DNA of 36,368 bases from Gammaproteobacteria bacterium (GTDB taxonomy: Bacteria > Pseudomonadota > Gammaproteobacteria > Pseudomonadales > Halieaceae). Both the position numbers and the translations under genes were made by a program. The notes beneath the pieces were generated by a model that searched no databases, was not told the DNA's origin, and was given only the letters and a program-made list of their open reading frames with translations. This document shows, piece after piece, positions 5,917-35,365 of the stretch. How positions within the stretch are numbered: position 1 is the first letter of the stretch; every line of letters begins with the position of its first letter. The stretch is from positions 1-36,368 of the forward strand of contig JAUHWV010000007.1 in the NCBI GenBank assembly GCA_030427335.1, read 5' to 3'.

Positions 5917-8619
5917 TTAGAGTTTTCCGTGACAAGATTTGTATTTCTTTCCGCTACCGCAAGGGCAGGGTTCGTTACGCCCTACTTTGCGCTCTTCACG
6001 CACAAAGGGCTCTGCGCCTGGGGCGGGTTCAGCCTCGCCCTCGCCGCTATCCATCGCGGCCGCCTGCGCGTGCTCAAATGCGAGCTTCTCTCGGGCAGCT
6101 TCTTCGCGACGGCGCTGCTCGATGAGAGCCGCCTCGTCCGGGCGCTGAATTTGAACGTGGCTCAAGAACTTCACCACCTCAAACTTCAAATTATTCAGCA
6201 AAGTCTGGAACAGCTCAAAGGACTCGCGCTTGTATTCCTGTTTGGGATTCTTCTGAGCGTAAGCGCGGAGATGAATACCCTGGCGTAACTGATCCATTGT
6301 CGCTAGGTGATCTTTCCACAGCTGATCCAGAATCTGCAGCATGACCTGCTTCTCGATGCTACGCATATCGGGGCCCACCAGCTCCGACTTCTCGTCATAG
6401 GCCTCTTGTATCGCGGCAACGACACGCTCGCGGATCGCCTCTTCGTCCACCGAGTTATCTTCATCTAGCCACTGTTGTACGGGCAACTGAATAGCAAAAT
6501 CAGTTTCCAACGCTTTCTCGAGCCCTGAAATATCCCACTGTTCCTCAACGCTCATAGGCGGTATGAAACCGTCAATGGCGTCGTTGATTACGTCCGCACG
6601 AATAGCCGTTACCGTTTCCGAGATATCATCCTCAAGCAGCAAATCGTTGCGCTGCTGGTAAATAATCTGACGCTGGTCATTGGCAACGTCATCGTACTCA
6701 AGCAACTGTTTACGAATGTCAAAGTTACGCCCTTCTACTTTACGCTGTGCTTTCTCGATGGCGTTGGTTAGATTACGGTGTTCGATGGCCTCGCCTTTTT
6801 CCATACCAAGGGCTTGCATAAAGTTCTTCACGCGATCAGAAGCAAAAATACGCATCAGGTTGTCTTCTAAAGACAAATAAAAACGCGATAAGCCTGGATC
6901 ACCCTGACGCCCTGCACGACCGCGAAGCTGGTTATCGATTCGTCGCGATTCGTGTCGCTCTGTGCCTAAGATATGTAAGCCGCCGGCAGCTAACACAGCT
7001 TCGTGGCGTTCTTGCCAAGCCGCTCTAATCGCTTCGTGCTGTTCGTCGCTGATATCACCCGCAGCCGCAAGCTCTGCCTCAAGATTACCACCCAATACGA
7101 TGTCAGTACCTCGACCCGCCATATTAGTGGCGATGGTCACCACGCCGGGGCGGCCCGCTTGAGCGATGATCTCGGCTTCCTGCTCGTGGTATTTCGCGTT
7201 GAGTACTTTGTGCTCTATCTTAGACTGCTTAAACCGTGCCGAAAGCTCTTCCGAAGTCTCAACCGACGCCGTTCCGACCAGCACCGGTGACCCCTTCTCG
7301 ATACAAGACAGCACGTCTTCAACGATCGCATCGAACTTTTCTTCACGCGTCAGATACACCAGATCGTTCAAGTCTTTGCGCTGCATAGGCTTGTTCGTTG
7401 GTATTACCAGAACTTCTAAGCCGTAAATTTGCCTGAACTCGAAGGCCTCGGTATCCGCCGTCCCCGTCATACCCGATAGCGTGTTATACAACCGGAAGTA
7501 GTTCTGGAAAGTCGTTGAGGCCAAAGTCTGGCTTTCGCTTTGAATCTGTACGCCTTCTTTTGCCTCGATAGCCTGATGTAGGCCTTCCGACAAGCGACGA
7601 CCGGGCATGGTGCGTCCAGTGTGCTCATCAATCAACACCACTTGGCCACCCTGAACGATGTACTCCACATCTTTATGGAACAATGCGTGCGCCTTGAGTG
7701 CAGAGTGTACGTGGTGCAATAAATTCAAATTTGTCGCCGCATATAGGCTTTCACCCTCCGCCAGCAAACCCTCGCTGATCAAAAGCCCTTCAACGTACTC
7801 GTGCCCCGCTTCTGTAAGTTCAATCGAGCGCTGTTTCTCATCGATCGAATAGTGCCCGGGTACTTCCTCCGTTCCCTGACTTAACATGGGCACAAAGCGA
7901 TTAATGCGCTTATACAGGTCGGAACTATCAGAGGAAGCACCCGAGATAATAAGGGGCGTCCGGGCCTCATCGATCAAAATCGAATCGACTTCGTCTACGA
8001 TTGCAAAATTGAGCTCACGCTGCAGACGGTCGGAAGCAGAAAAGGCCATGTTGTCACGCAGGTAATCGAAACCGAATTCGTTGTTGGTGCCGTAAATGAT
8101 GTCCGCTGAATAAGCCTGCTTCTTTTGCTCTCCGGCCTGCCCGGACTTAATCACACCTACGCTCAAGCCCAAAAAGCGATAAAGAGGCTCCATCCAGTGC
8201 GCGTCACGATTAGCCAGGTAGTCGTTTACCGTAACCAGGTGTACACCTTTACCCGTAAGTGCATTCAGATAAGCTGGCAAGGTCGCAACCAGCGTTTTAC
8301 CCTCACCCGTGCGCATCTCGGCGATTTTGCCTTCATGTAGAGCGATACCACCGATCATCTGCACATCGAAGTGACGCAATCCCAAAGTGCGTTTGCCCGC
8401 CTCGCGCACAACCGCAAAGGCTTCGGGTAGAATCGACGTCAGCGTTTCACCCTGCTCTAGGCGCTCTTTAAACAAGGGGGTTTTGGCCGCCAACTCGTCA
8501 TCCGACAGCGCCGCTAAACCACTTTCAAATTCGTTAATTTTCGCGACCAGCTTGCCGATGCGCTTCAACTCGCGGTCGTTACGGGTGCCGAAAACTTTTC
8601 TCAATACATTCGCAATCAT
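5917..8619 (-). CDS. secA: Protein translocase ATPase SecA
   Basis: Start proposed at the ATG at 8619 ([20 protein letters not shown]), not ORF start 8628: AAGGA SD at 8632-8628 gives 8-nt spacing, and the N-terminus then matches the canonical length. [37 protein letters not shown] and C-terminal SEC-C zinc motif [14 protein letters not shown]. Confidence 0.96.
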
Positions 8620-8680
8620 CAATCTCATCCTTCAAAAAAATGGGGGGACTTGCCAACAGCTGGCTTGGAGCTGAGATTGA
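8619..8680 (-). promoter_or_regulatory. Predicted RNA helix sequestering the secA ribosome-binding site
   Basis: On the - strand TCAATCTCA-GC-TCC (8680-8667) is complementary to GGA-TGAGATTGA (8630-8619): 9 bp + 3 bp with a 2-nt bulge and 36-nt loop. The 3' arm contains part of the SD and reaches the first base of the secA ATG. Confidence 0.6.
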
Positions 8681-8682
8681 AA

Positions 8683-9588
8683 TTAGGAAAGGGTGTTGTG
8701 CTGATACCGTGATGGGTCAATGAGTCTGCCAAAAGCAAAGGCCGGTCGCTGTTCGCGGTTAGCCCACAATAACGCTTGGTATGAAGCGATCAATGCGTGC
8801 CCACGCTCGCTGCTAATAGTGCTTGAGATGGAATGATATTCGGGACGCTCACTTATAACGAGTGCGCTTGGCGCAGAAGCGCGTTCGCCAGCAGAGGCAT
8901 CTACCAAAGGCTCGTGGCCGAGATGAAACCAGGCCTTCGGACTATGGCGATCTGCGATATCCGTTTGATGCAACACACCGATTGCCATTCGCACCGCAGC
9001 GCGAATCGATGCCACCGGACGGTCCGTCCTTGCACACCGGCTCGATTCCCCAGCCCCAGCCTTCGCAGCAGAGTCACGGGAGGAAGCCAAGTCAACAAAA
9101 TCGAAATAGTAACTACCCAGCTCAATATCGGAGGCGGAGTCATTCAGCTTGAGCGAGGTGTAAGTCGGCAAGACCCAACCATTAGCAGACTCAGTCAAAG
9201 ACCCCTTTTGATCAGACGCAGCCCAATCCCAATTCAGCGCGCACTCAGCGATATCAGGCCTAGGCAAGCTTGGGTGAACCCAGTATTGCCAATTCAGGGG
9301 CGCCTCCCCTACCACTTTAATGGGTAGGCTGGCGATATTTGAGGCAAGTGAACGTAGCGTATTTCGCGCTCTTAGGCTGAGTGATATGGGTTCTTTGACA
9401 ACCTGCGGCTGACTCGCTTTTTCAAACGAAGTCTGCGCCGAATACGAGATAGTCGCTTCGTTATCGCTGCTCGCCGCCAGCCCCATGGGTAACCCTACCA
9501 ACACAACCGAGGCAATCGATTTGCCCAAGCGCCGCCAGTCATGACTGACGATACGCTCAACAAGGTTAGTTGGGGTTGGCTTGCTCAT
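8683..9588 (-). CDS. Orphan exported protein in the secM position (candidate SecM-like secA regulator)
   Basis: ORF track 8683-9657; start chosen at ATG 9588 (MSKPTPTNLVERIVSHDWRRLGKSIASVVLVGLPMGLAASS...), with ATG 9609 and TTG 9657 as alternatives. Positively charged, extended n-region plus a hydrophobic core resembling a signal sequence. Co-oriented between lpxC and secA. No family recognised in the mature part. Confidence 0.6.
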   Translation of the reverse strand: MSKPTPTNLVERIVSHDWRRLGKSIASVVLVGLPMGLAASSDNEATISYSAQTSFEKASQPQVVKEPISLSLRARNTLRSLASNIASLPIKVVGEAPLNWQYWVHPSLPRPDIAECALNWDWAASDQKGSLTESANGWVLPTYTSLKLNDSASDIELGSYYFDFVDLASSRDSAAKAGAGESSRCARTDRPVASIRAAVRMAIGVLHQTDIADRHSPKAWFHLGHEPLVDASAGERASAPSALVISERPEYHSISSTISSERGHALIASYQALLWANREQRPAFAFGRLIDPSRYQHNTLS

Positions 9589-9772
9589 GCTCGGGCGCAA
9601 TAGGCGCATGTGATTTAATGAGCGCACAATATGCCACAAGCGGGCCCGTAACACCAACTCGACAGGGCATCGTAAAGCGTCCGTTTGTCACAAATGGGTA
9701 CCTTTTAGAGCGGCGAAGGATTAGCGACCGCCGGGTGTGGCTTCGTCTGAGTCATACGCAATCTGGTGATTA

Positions 9773-9875: not shown

Positions 9876-10793
9876 TTAAACTGCCAAAGCAACAGGGCTC
9901 GTATTGTAAGAGATCGGCGCGCGCTGGGCGTCATCGAAAGTCACCATTTCCCAAGCGTCTTCTTGCTGAAGCAGGCTCCGCAGCAAACGATTGTTCAAAG
10001 CGTGACCCGACTTGTGGGCGCGAAACTCGCCAATCAGACTGTAGCCCAGCAAGTACAGATCACCAATCGCGTCGAGAATTTTATGTTTTACGAACTCATC
10101 TTCGTAGCGTAGACCGTCTTCGTTCAAAATACGATACTCGTCGACGACGATGGCGTTATCGACACTGCCACCTTGGGCTAGCCCCTGAGAACGCAGATAT
10201 TCGATTTCGTGCATAAAACCAAAAGTGCGCGCGCGGCTGATTTCTTTTACAAAGCTCGTACTGGAAAAATCGACTTCCGCCGTTGCCTTGCGATCGCGAA
10301 ATACGGGGTGATCAAAATCGATATTAAACGCCACTTTGAAGCCATCAAAAGGCAAGAAAGTGGCCGTCTTGTCACCGTCGGTTACGGTAACTTCTTTTTT
10401 AATCCGAATAAACTTCTTCAAGGCGGCTTGCTCTTCAATACCCGCCGACTGAATCAGAAAAACAAAAGGGCCAGCACTACCATCCATAATCGGGACCTCG
10501 GTCGCACTGACATCGATAAACGCGTTATCGATGCCAAGACCTGCCATGGCACTGAGAAGATGTTCAACGGTGGAGACCCGCTGACCATCCGCAACTAAGG
10601 TGGTGGAGAGAGTCGTGTCACCTACGTTCAGTGCACTGGCCGGTATTTCAACTACGGGATCCAGATCAACGCGACGAAACACAATGCCATTGTCAATCGG
10701 CGCCGGCGACAGACCAAGGTACACTTTTTGGCCCGTGTGCAAACCTACACCGGTGGCTTTAATCGGATTGCGCAGAGTGCGTTGTCTAATCAT
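9876..10793 (-). CDS. lpxC: UDP-3-O-acyl-N-acetylglucosamine deacetylase LpxC
   Basis: [52 protein letters not shown] zinc-site motif; [14 protein letters not shown] and [12 protein letters not shown]. Confidence 0.97.
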
Positions 10794-33325: not shown

Positions 33326-35365
33326 TTAGTGGACGTCCTTCCAGTACTCGCGATTCAGCAACCAAGCAAGAACGAAGAAGAGAACGATAAACATGAGTGT
33401 GAATACGCCAATACGCTTTCTATCCTCGGCAAAGGGTTCTGCCGTGTAGGACAAAAAGTTCACCAAGTCGTACATCGCACCGTCAAATTCAGCCGGCGTC
33501 ATCAACCCAGCCTGCTTGACCTCAAGACGACCACAAGGCACGTCGAGAATATCTTCACCGGTCAGCGGATCTCGCTTTACGCCACCGTTAGCTGCATGGC
33601 CAGGCCCCATAGCGCACACCTGCATACCTTGGAGATCCATTAAGACATGCGGCATACCCACGTCTTTGAACACTTTGTTATTCACGCCGTAAGGGCGGCT
33701 TGAATCAGCATAAAACGTACGCAGGTAAGTATATAACCACTCTGGCTGACGAGCACGTGAGATCAGGGTCAAATCCGGTGGTGTCGCACCAAACCATTGC
33801 TTTGCCAAACCTTTGTCCATCGCGTTGTTCATGAGCGCACCCATTTTCACGTCGGGATCAAACTTCAGGTTGCCGTCAAATAGATCTTCGGGAATGCCGA
33901 GATCCGTTGCCACTCGATTGTAGCGTGAATACTGCATTGAGTGGCAGGCGTGGCAGTAGTTCATATACAACTTCGCACCGTTCTGGAGCGACGCTTTATC
34001 CGTGTGATCCACACTGATCTCGTCACAAGGAATCGAACCGCACGCAAACTCCGACTCAGCACCCACTGCTTTCAGCGGCAGCACAGTTAGCAAAGCAATA
34101 ACTGCCGCTGCGCCCAGCACACCCATGGCTCCCAGACCGCCATTCATTGTGACGCGCTCCGGCACGGGCTTAGTTTTATCCATCGCTGACCAGATTGGCA
34201 TCAGCAAGAAAAACGCGAAGTAAATCACAGAGCAAATTTGAGCTAAGAAGGTTCTGGCCGGGGTTGGCGCCTTCACGCCCAACACACCCAAGATCAAGAA
34301 TGAGGCAACAAACAGCGCGAGCATTACCTTAGTGATGTTGCCTTTATAACGCCAACTGCGAACAGGCGAGCGATCAAGCCAAGGCAACAAGAACGGAATC
34401 GCGACCGAGGCGGCAAACGCCACAAAGCCCCAGAATTTGTCGGGAACCGCTCTCAGCACCGAATAGAACGGTGTGAAGTACCAAACAGGAGCAATATGCG
34501 CAGGGGTTTTCAGCGCATTGGCTTCTTCAAAGTTTGCGTACTCAAGGAAGAACCCGCCCATTTCAGGCATAAAGAAAATGATGCCGCAGAAAATGAACAA
34601 GAACACTGCGATTGCTTGCAAATCATGCACCGAGTAATAGGGGTGAAACTTAATACCATCAAGCGGAACGCCATTCGCATACTTGTGTTTCTTGATATCA
34701 ACGCCATCCGGGTTGTTCGACCCAACCTCATGCAGCGCCAGCAAATGCAGCACGACGAGGGCCAAAAGCACAATAGGAAGCGCAACCACGTGCAGCGCAA
34801 AGAAACGATTCAGAGTAATACCTGAAATCAAGTAGTCGCCGCGGATCCACGTAACGAGATCCTCACCCACCACCGGAATGGCGCCAAACAGCGAGATAAT
34901 CACCTGGGCTCCCCAGTAAGACATCTGTCCCCATGGAAGTACATATCCCACAAACGCTTCGGCCATAAGCACAACGAAGATCAGCATACCGAAGATCCAG
35001 ATGAGCTCTCTAGGCTTCTGATATGACCCATACAGCAACGCGCGGAACATGTGCAAATAGACAACCACAAAGAACGCTGAAGCACCGGTCGAGTGCATAT
35101 AGCGAATGAGCCATCCGTATTCGACATCGCGCATGATGTACTCGACAGAGGCAAAAGCGTTTTCAGCGCTCGGAGTGTAACTCATGGTGAGCCAGATACC
35201 GGTTAGAAGTTGGTTTACCAAAACCACCAACGAGAGCACACCGAAAAAGTACCAAAAGTTAAAGTTTTTAGGCGCGTAGTACTCCCCCATGTGCGTGTTC
35301 CACGCACGCATAATTGGCAGGCGGGCATCAACCCAATCACGCAAACCCACTAAAGCATTAATCAT
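33326..35365 (-). CDS. Ubiquinol-cytochrome c reductase cytochrome b fused in frame to cytochrome c1
   Basis: 679 aa single ORF. N-terminal ~400 aa is cytochrome b (YMHSTGASAFFVVVYLHMFRALLYGSY, YVLPWGQMSYWGA, Qo-motif region PVWYFTPFYSVLRAVP). C-terminal part is cytochrome c1 (NYCHACHSMQYSRYNRVATDLGI with CxxCH, C-terminal TM anchor). Confidence 0.93.
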   Translation of the reverse strand: MINALVGLRDWVDARLPIMRAWNTHMGEYYAPKNFNFWYFFGVLSLVVLVNQLLTGIWLTMSYTPSAENAFASVEYIMRDVEYGWLIRYMHSTGASAFFVVVYLHMFRALLYGSYQKPRELIWIFGMLIFVVLMAEAFVGYVLPWGQMSYWGAQVIISLFGAIPVVGEDLVTWIRGDYLISGITLNRFFALHVVALPIVLLALVVLHLLALHEVGSNNPDGVDIKKHKYANGVPLDGIKFHPYYSVHDLQAIAVFLFIFCGIIFFMPEMGGFFLEYANFEEANALKTPAHIAPVWYFTPFYSVLRAVPDKFWGFVAFAASVAIPFLLPWLDRSPVRSWRYKGNITKVMLALFVASFLILGVLGVKAPTPARTFLAQICSVIYFAFFLLMPIWSAMDKTKPVPERVTMNGGLGAMGVLGAAAVIALLTVLPLKAVGAESEFACGSIPCDEISVDHTDKASLQNGAKLYMNYCHACHSMQYSRYNRVATDLGIPEDLFDGNLKFDPDVKMGALMNNAMDKGLAKQWFGATPPDLTLISRARQPEWLYTYLRTFYADSSRPYGVNNKVFKDVGMPHVLMDLQGMQVCAMGPGHAANGGVKRDPLTGEDILDVPCGRLEVKQAGLMTPAEFDGAMYDLVNFLSYTAEPFAEDRKRIGVFTLMFIVLFFVLAWLLNREYWKDVH

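Follow-up and report, generated by a model that had tools for sequence, protein, structure and literature searches.

An open reading frame between lpxC and secA in one Halieaceae genus looks like an independently evolved SecM-type secretion sensor

The DNA analyzed here ("the window") is the whole 36,368-nucleotide stretch of contig JAUHWV010000007.1, from a 2.6-Mb draft genome of a Halieaceae gammaproteobacterium (GCA_030427335.1); with four other genomes (G001 to G004) it makes up our sample of the genus. An open reading frame (ORF) of 301 residues lies between lpxC and secA on the minus strand, from 9588 down to 8683, all three co-oriented in the order known from SecM-type loci. A sequence-only reading of the window had reported this arrangement, and the N-terminus and tail that it quoted match the translation exactly. 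The features of the locus, in the direction of transcription, are:

9876 to 10793, minus strand: lpxC, the upstream neighbor of the ORF (Pfam LpxC match)
9628 to 9637, minus strand: promoter-like extended -10 element GTGGCATATT, found by eye ahead of the ORF in each of the five genomes and in most M23-type relatives
8683 to 9588, minus strand: the lpxC-secA ORF, 301 codons from ATG to TAA, with same-site orthologs in G001 to G004; candidate secretion-monitoring arrest peptide
9466 to 9588, minus strand: N-terminal export segment (residues 1-41), kept throughout the genus and sharing ancestry with the membrane anchor of the M23 peptidases of this locus
8731 to 9465, minus strand: variable spacer (residues 42-286), a decayed M23 catalytic region with no predicted fold and no HxH
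8683 to 8730, minus strand: C-terminal tail GRLIDPSRYQHNTLS and stop codon, conserved as protein, with near-saturated synonymous sites; putative arrest sequence
8619 to 8680, minus strand: predicted RNA hairpin in which TCAATCTCA (8680-8672) pairs with TGAGATTGA (8627-8619), hiding the secA Shine-Dalgarno (SD) sequence and start
8628 to 8633, minus strand: secA SD sequence, GAAGGA
5917 to 8619, minus strand: secA, the presumed regulated gene (Pfam SecA match)

Comparison with the MI.N.. starts of relatives makes 8619 the most likely secA start, in preference to the first in-frame ATG (8628). The promoter-like element, GTGGCATAnT, is common to the ORF and most of the peptidase loci described below, judged by eye; a consensus promoter scan did not list it at 9628 to 9637. 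No Pfam or NCBIfam family matched the window ORF at E <= 10 except for one chance match, and the ORF, of no known function, immediately precedes a sec gene. All five ORFs of the genus stop with TAA or TAG, and many of the M23-type relatives stop with TGA, in what is a small sample. Elsewhere in the window (33326 to 35365, minus strand) a 679-residue ORF matches cytochrome b in its N- and C-terminal parts and then cytochrome c1 at its end, and is apparently a fused cytochrome b/c1 gene.

Each of the other four genomes has an ortholog at the same site, three recovered by search and the fourth, in G003, by inspection of the lpxC-secA gap, its sequence having diverged too far for the first search to pick it up; the loci include those of the metagenome-assembled genomes Gammaproteobacteria bacterium Ww597 and Halieaceae bacterium LH.11. 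The homologs between lpxC and secA on which the sequence-only reading had staked its proposal are thus present in five of five genomes, with lengths of 301, 218, 218, 218, and 255 residues. The frame is no chance occurrence, being open in five species whose start, hydrophobic segment and C-terminus are conserved. No relatives were identified outside the genus among 369 genomes spread over the class; because the five loci are all related and come from one genus only, they are not fully independent.

Conservation across the ORF is limited to two parts, the export segment at the N-terminus and the final 15 residues. The former consists of a basic N-region and one hydrophobic core, as had been described from the sequence, with a best 11-residue Kyte-Doolittle mean of 2.33 over residues 25-35; the five aligned proteins share the pattern D-[WR]-[RK]-R-..-AS-..-L-.-GLP-.-G, and the conservation of a hydrophobic segment after basic residues was judged by hydropathy and alignment, without a signal-peptide or transmembrane predictor. 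Between this segment and the tail lie 163-246 residues, free in both sequence and length, and AlphaFold2 with a five-row alignment gave no fold for the ORF protein (mean pLDDT 38.7). The last 15 residues conform to GR[LV][IV]DP[SA]xYxxxTLS-stop, TLS-stop being invariant in the five genomes. Pairwise identity is 53-93% in the tail against 13-61% in the spacer, the tail scoring higher in every pair, and in the two comparisons involving G003 no spacer 15-mer matched as well as the tail; greater conservation of the C-terminus than of the rest, which had been predicted, is therefore borne out for roughly the last 15 residues, together with the signal.

The tail is also under purifying selection, a further point on which the proposal had been made to depend: over the last 15 codons pS ranges from 0.43 to 0.94 and pN from 0.03 to 0.36. 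Codon choice varies for Gly (GGC/GGG/GGT), Arg (AGA/CGT/CGC/CGG), Pro (CCA/CCG/CCC), Leu (CTT/TTA/TTG/CTA), and Ser (TCC/TCT/TCG). Since the amino acids are kept while most synonymous sites differ, selection acts on the protein, and the excess of pS over pN argues that the conservation is not an RNA effect alone. The absence of RAGP had been correctly noted: the tail GRLIDPSRYQHNTLS lacks the SecM arrest motif FxxxxWIxxxxGIRAGP, neither Pfam nor NCBIfam gave a SecM match at E <= 10, and none of the five sequences has an R-A-P-P-like motif in its C-terminal region.

Outside the genus, the usual content of the lpxC-secA gap in this family is a gene of about 310 codons that encodes an M23 peptidase (PF01551, with E 2e-32 for one of them). 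Of the 57 loci from these other genera that were readable at both ends, 53 carry it; M23 peptidases are also the usual occupants of this gap across other families of the order. The four exceptions, in which the gene is wholly missing, fall in genera g14 (L006, L008, L010) and g4 (L063), so both the enzyme and a regulator are dispensable in those genomes. In alignment, the peptidase N-terminus (..GRWSRALLSLCCLGLPLGM..) and C-terminus (..GRPVDPSSYVRRTRR-stop) correspond to the conserved ends of the ORF, and the number of residues from DP to the stop is identical. A profile of the M23 locus matched the five full proteins with E values of 6e-11 to 5e-6, their first 45 residues alone with 1.5e-7 to 2.7e-5, and their last 16 residues alone with 1e-4 to 3e-3 (each for a search space of one), while against the middle of the five proteins it scored no better than against shuffled sequence. 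The zinc-binding HxH is missing in all five ORFs, and the window ORF has no Pfam M23 match at E <= 10. A vestigial HxGxD motif in the window ORF (KAWFHLGHEPLVDASAGE), tempting in the alignment, was rejected as it did not rise above shuffled sequence. A relocated intact copy of this M23 gene was sought within the genus, and only distant M23 domains (<= 43% identity) were found elsewhere.

Because the ends match the M23 profile and HxH is absent, we conclude from these comparisons that the ORF is a descendant of the lpxC-secA M23 peptidase from which the catalytic domain has gone and the two ends remain. This bears on several points of the sequence-only reading. The mature part that it did not recognize does fall in no Pfam or NCBIfam family, but its context identifies it as a decayed M23 peptidase; the loose likeness of the tail to GIRAGPQR does not survive, as GRxxDPxxY corresponds in alignment to the final strand of that peptidase's domain; and recognition as an unrelated enzyme family, which would have refuted the proposal, counts against it only in part, the kinship being by descent and the enzyme domain itself being lost.

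The predicted hairpin supplies the second line of evidence. A structure hiding the secA SD and start, of which the sequence-only reading was unaware, is predicted in 5/5 genomes, its 5' arm lying in the last two codons of the ORF or just past the stop. In the window the pairing of TCAATCTCA with TGAGATTGA is joined by a second pairing of TCC (8669-8667) with GGA (8630-8628) of the SD; the corresponding arms are TCCTTGTTTA/TAAACAAGGA in G001, CCTATCGT/ACGATAGG in G003, and TTGTCCT/AGGACAA plus TTTGTTCAA/TTGAACAAA in G004. The arm sequences differ between lineages and still pair, pointing to conservation of the pairing and not of the sequence. A search of Rfam gave no match.

Such renewal of the hairpin with different sequences in each lineage is hard to reconcile with the ORF being a decaying M23 pseudogene that has stayed open by chance. 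Loss of the catalytic domain and of HxH, and the complete absence of the gene in g14 and g4, are what such decay would look like; yet the five species have no in-frame stop, and both the tail and the N-terminus are conserved at the protein level at a synonymous divergence near saturation. We regard a pseudogene as very improbable.

The effect of a terminating ribosome was modeled by treating the mRNA as occupied as far as 12 nt beyond the first base of the stop codon, an assumed footprint. The cost of opening the SD-to-AUG region was 9.9-14.6 kcal/mol in the free mRNA of the five genomes against 1.4-5.7 kcal/mol with the ribosome at the stop, a reduction of 7.3-12.3 kcal/mol. At 52 M23-type loci the same gain had a median of 0.5 and a maximum of 3.7 kcal/mol, completely separated from the five genus loci (nominal Mann-Whitney p 2e-7, kinship ignored), and of 200 intergenic shuffles per genome only 0-4 reached the observed gain. 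SD burial was stable with 45-300 nt of upstream context; judged by total energy, the window hairpin is the weakest (z -1.2), though its SD burial is unusual (3/200 shuffles). In a control with E. coli secM-secA the cost fell from about 8 to 3.5 kcal/mol with long context and showed little with short context, so the measure is only roughly calibrated. The peptidase loci lack a comparable SD-burying hairpin, and the idea that the M23 peptidases are themselves arrest peptides is not supported. Three M23-type loci of genus g13 (L028, L029, L036) carry a shorter helix near the stop, for example TCTTCAGGA/TCCTGAAGA, between the stretch that follows the M23 stop and the secA SD; the gain predicted for a ribosome at the stop is small, and the helix is possibly an early stage of a similar switch.

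A hairpin released by a ribosome at the stop is exactly what plain translational coupling requires, in which secA translation depends on ribosomes reaching the end of the ORF with neither arrest nor secretion sensing, and this is the main rival explanation. Coupling has no need of conserved amino acids, yet the tail is kept at the protein level while its codons are free, and the export segment is kept as well; as coupling without a stall would not preserve the tail amino acids, we consider it unlikely, without dismissing it. Still less probable in our estimation is that the ORF product is a small protein, exported or anchored in the membrane, with a tail that binds a periplasmic partner, the hairpin being a separate control element: the export-like segment, the conserved C-terminal motif and the origin from an envelope enzyme would suit it, but no fold is predicted, the spacer is unconstrained in sequence and length, and loss of the domain together with gain of an SD-burying hairpin at the very stop would have to be coincidence.

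We return to secretion monitoring, for which Fujiwara et al. (2024; PMC10987492) give criteria: the ORF is uncharacterized and precedes a sec gene, it encodes an export segment and a conserved C-terminus, and more than 30 residues of spacer lie between them; according to the same text, peptides found in this way then stalled ribosomes in tests. The lpxC-secA ORF satisfies the criteria of unknown function, position, C-terminal conservation, and spacer length; its export segment is putative, judged by hydropathy and alignment without a signal-peptide predictor. A downstream SD hidden by a structure that a ribosome at the ORF end opens is likewise found in 5/5 genomes, as a prediction only. The ORF resembles E. 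coli SecM (PMC10987492) in gene order, a putative export signal, a conserved C-terminal sequence, and the placing of the secA SD in an RNA structure opened by a ribosome at the end of the ORF; it differs in lacking FxxxxWIxxxxGIRAGP and any Pfam match, in its derivation from an M23 gene, and in a hairpin that opens with the ribosome further downstream. Also similar are the uA_RQH_Pseudomonadales and other RAPP-like substrates, which, as described in PMC10987492, lie upstream of secA in the same order and have a signal (for the Halieaceae ORF a putative one), a conserved C-terminus and a long variable spacer, whereas the Halieaceae ORF has no R-A-P-P-like motif. A 116-codon ORF just upstream of secA at locus L101 (G175, family f37; minus strand, about 2310-1960), with an export-like N-terminus and the ending ..LSRRGPPSTCHCIG-stop, is probably a member of this published RGPP/RAPP group and unrelated to the M23 gene.

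The Halieaceae tail corresponds to none of the motifs named in PMC10987492 (SecM RAGP, RAPP-like, LPPP, NSP-stop, NAP-stop, DGMK-stop, KYxIW). That screen was limited to ORFs of unknown function below 300 aa, which leaves the 301-residue window ORF outside it; an unnamed cluster in the survey's supplementary tables could contain some of the genus ORFs. Stop-dependent arrest peptides reported from Bacteroidota or Firmicutes share conserved residues immediately before the stop, on which their arrest depends, and differ in motif from the Halieaceae TLS-stop with its upstream GRxxDPxxY. The lpxC-secA M23 (LytM-type) gene of Pseudomonadales has the locus, the N-terminal anchor, and a C-terminal GRxVDPxxYxxxT equally far from the stop in common with the ORF, which in turn lacks the catalytic domain. 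CutF (mBio 2023; PMC9973294) is an exported protein that, while nascent, is reported to control how a downstream gene is translated; it senses copper, not secretion, and lies at a different locus. We found no link between M23 peptidases and arrest at secA in open-access papers.

That the ORF is a functional analog of SecM, as the sequence-only reading had inferred, is supported by the locus, the conserved ends, the selection on them, and the SD-hiding hairpin, with stalling inferred only. We consider it likely that the ORF encodes a SecM-like monitoring substrate for secA, with arrest at or next to the stop codon; this position is inferred from the invariant TLS-stop and from the window hairpin, which opens only with the ribosome edge at about +9 or beyond (+6 to +9 in G001), which locates a useful stall right at the ORF end. 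That the conserved sequence runs to the stop codon likewise suggests arrest at termination. In the proposed mechanism, the tail would halt the ribosome when the stop codon is in or beside the A site; the stalled ribosome would keep the hairpin open and allow secA to be translated, and pulling on the nascent chain by SecA/SecYEG would end the stall and close a feedback loop. In evolutionary terms, the peptidase would have lost its catalytic domain in this genus, and the signal and last strand would have been co-opted. On balance the data favor a new Sec-monitoring arrest class, GRxxDPxxYxxxTLS-stop, born by M23 peptidase decay as an SD-burying hairpin arose at the stop. The motif is unlike any tested arrest sequence, so the arrest is inferred from conservation and architecture; there are no stalling data, the force response is equally an inference, and the evidence comprises five related draft genomes, with no experiment and an assumed ribosome footprint.

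To our knowledge, SecM-type sensors are short and fast-evolving, and we know of no account of their origin. The 2024 survey (PMC10987492) finds that they arise repeatedly, and no ancestral source is stated there. Here the likely ancestor is visible, as most of the family and order retain a full M23 peptidase where one genus has its two ends and a new RNA switch. If true, the origin of an arrest peptide from an enzyme could be traced here, the last strand of the domain having become a force-sensitive arrest peptide. The locus also provides a new candidate arrest motif for ribosome tests, apparently acting at the stop codon. The case suggests, too, that a screen restricted to short ORFs of unknown function can overlook loci of this kind.
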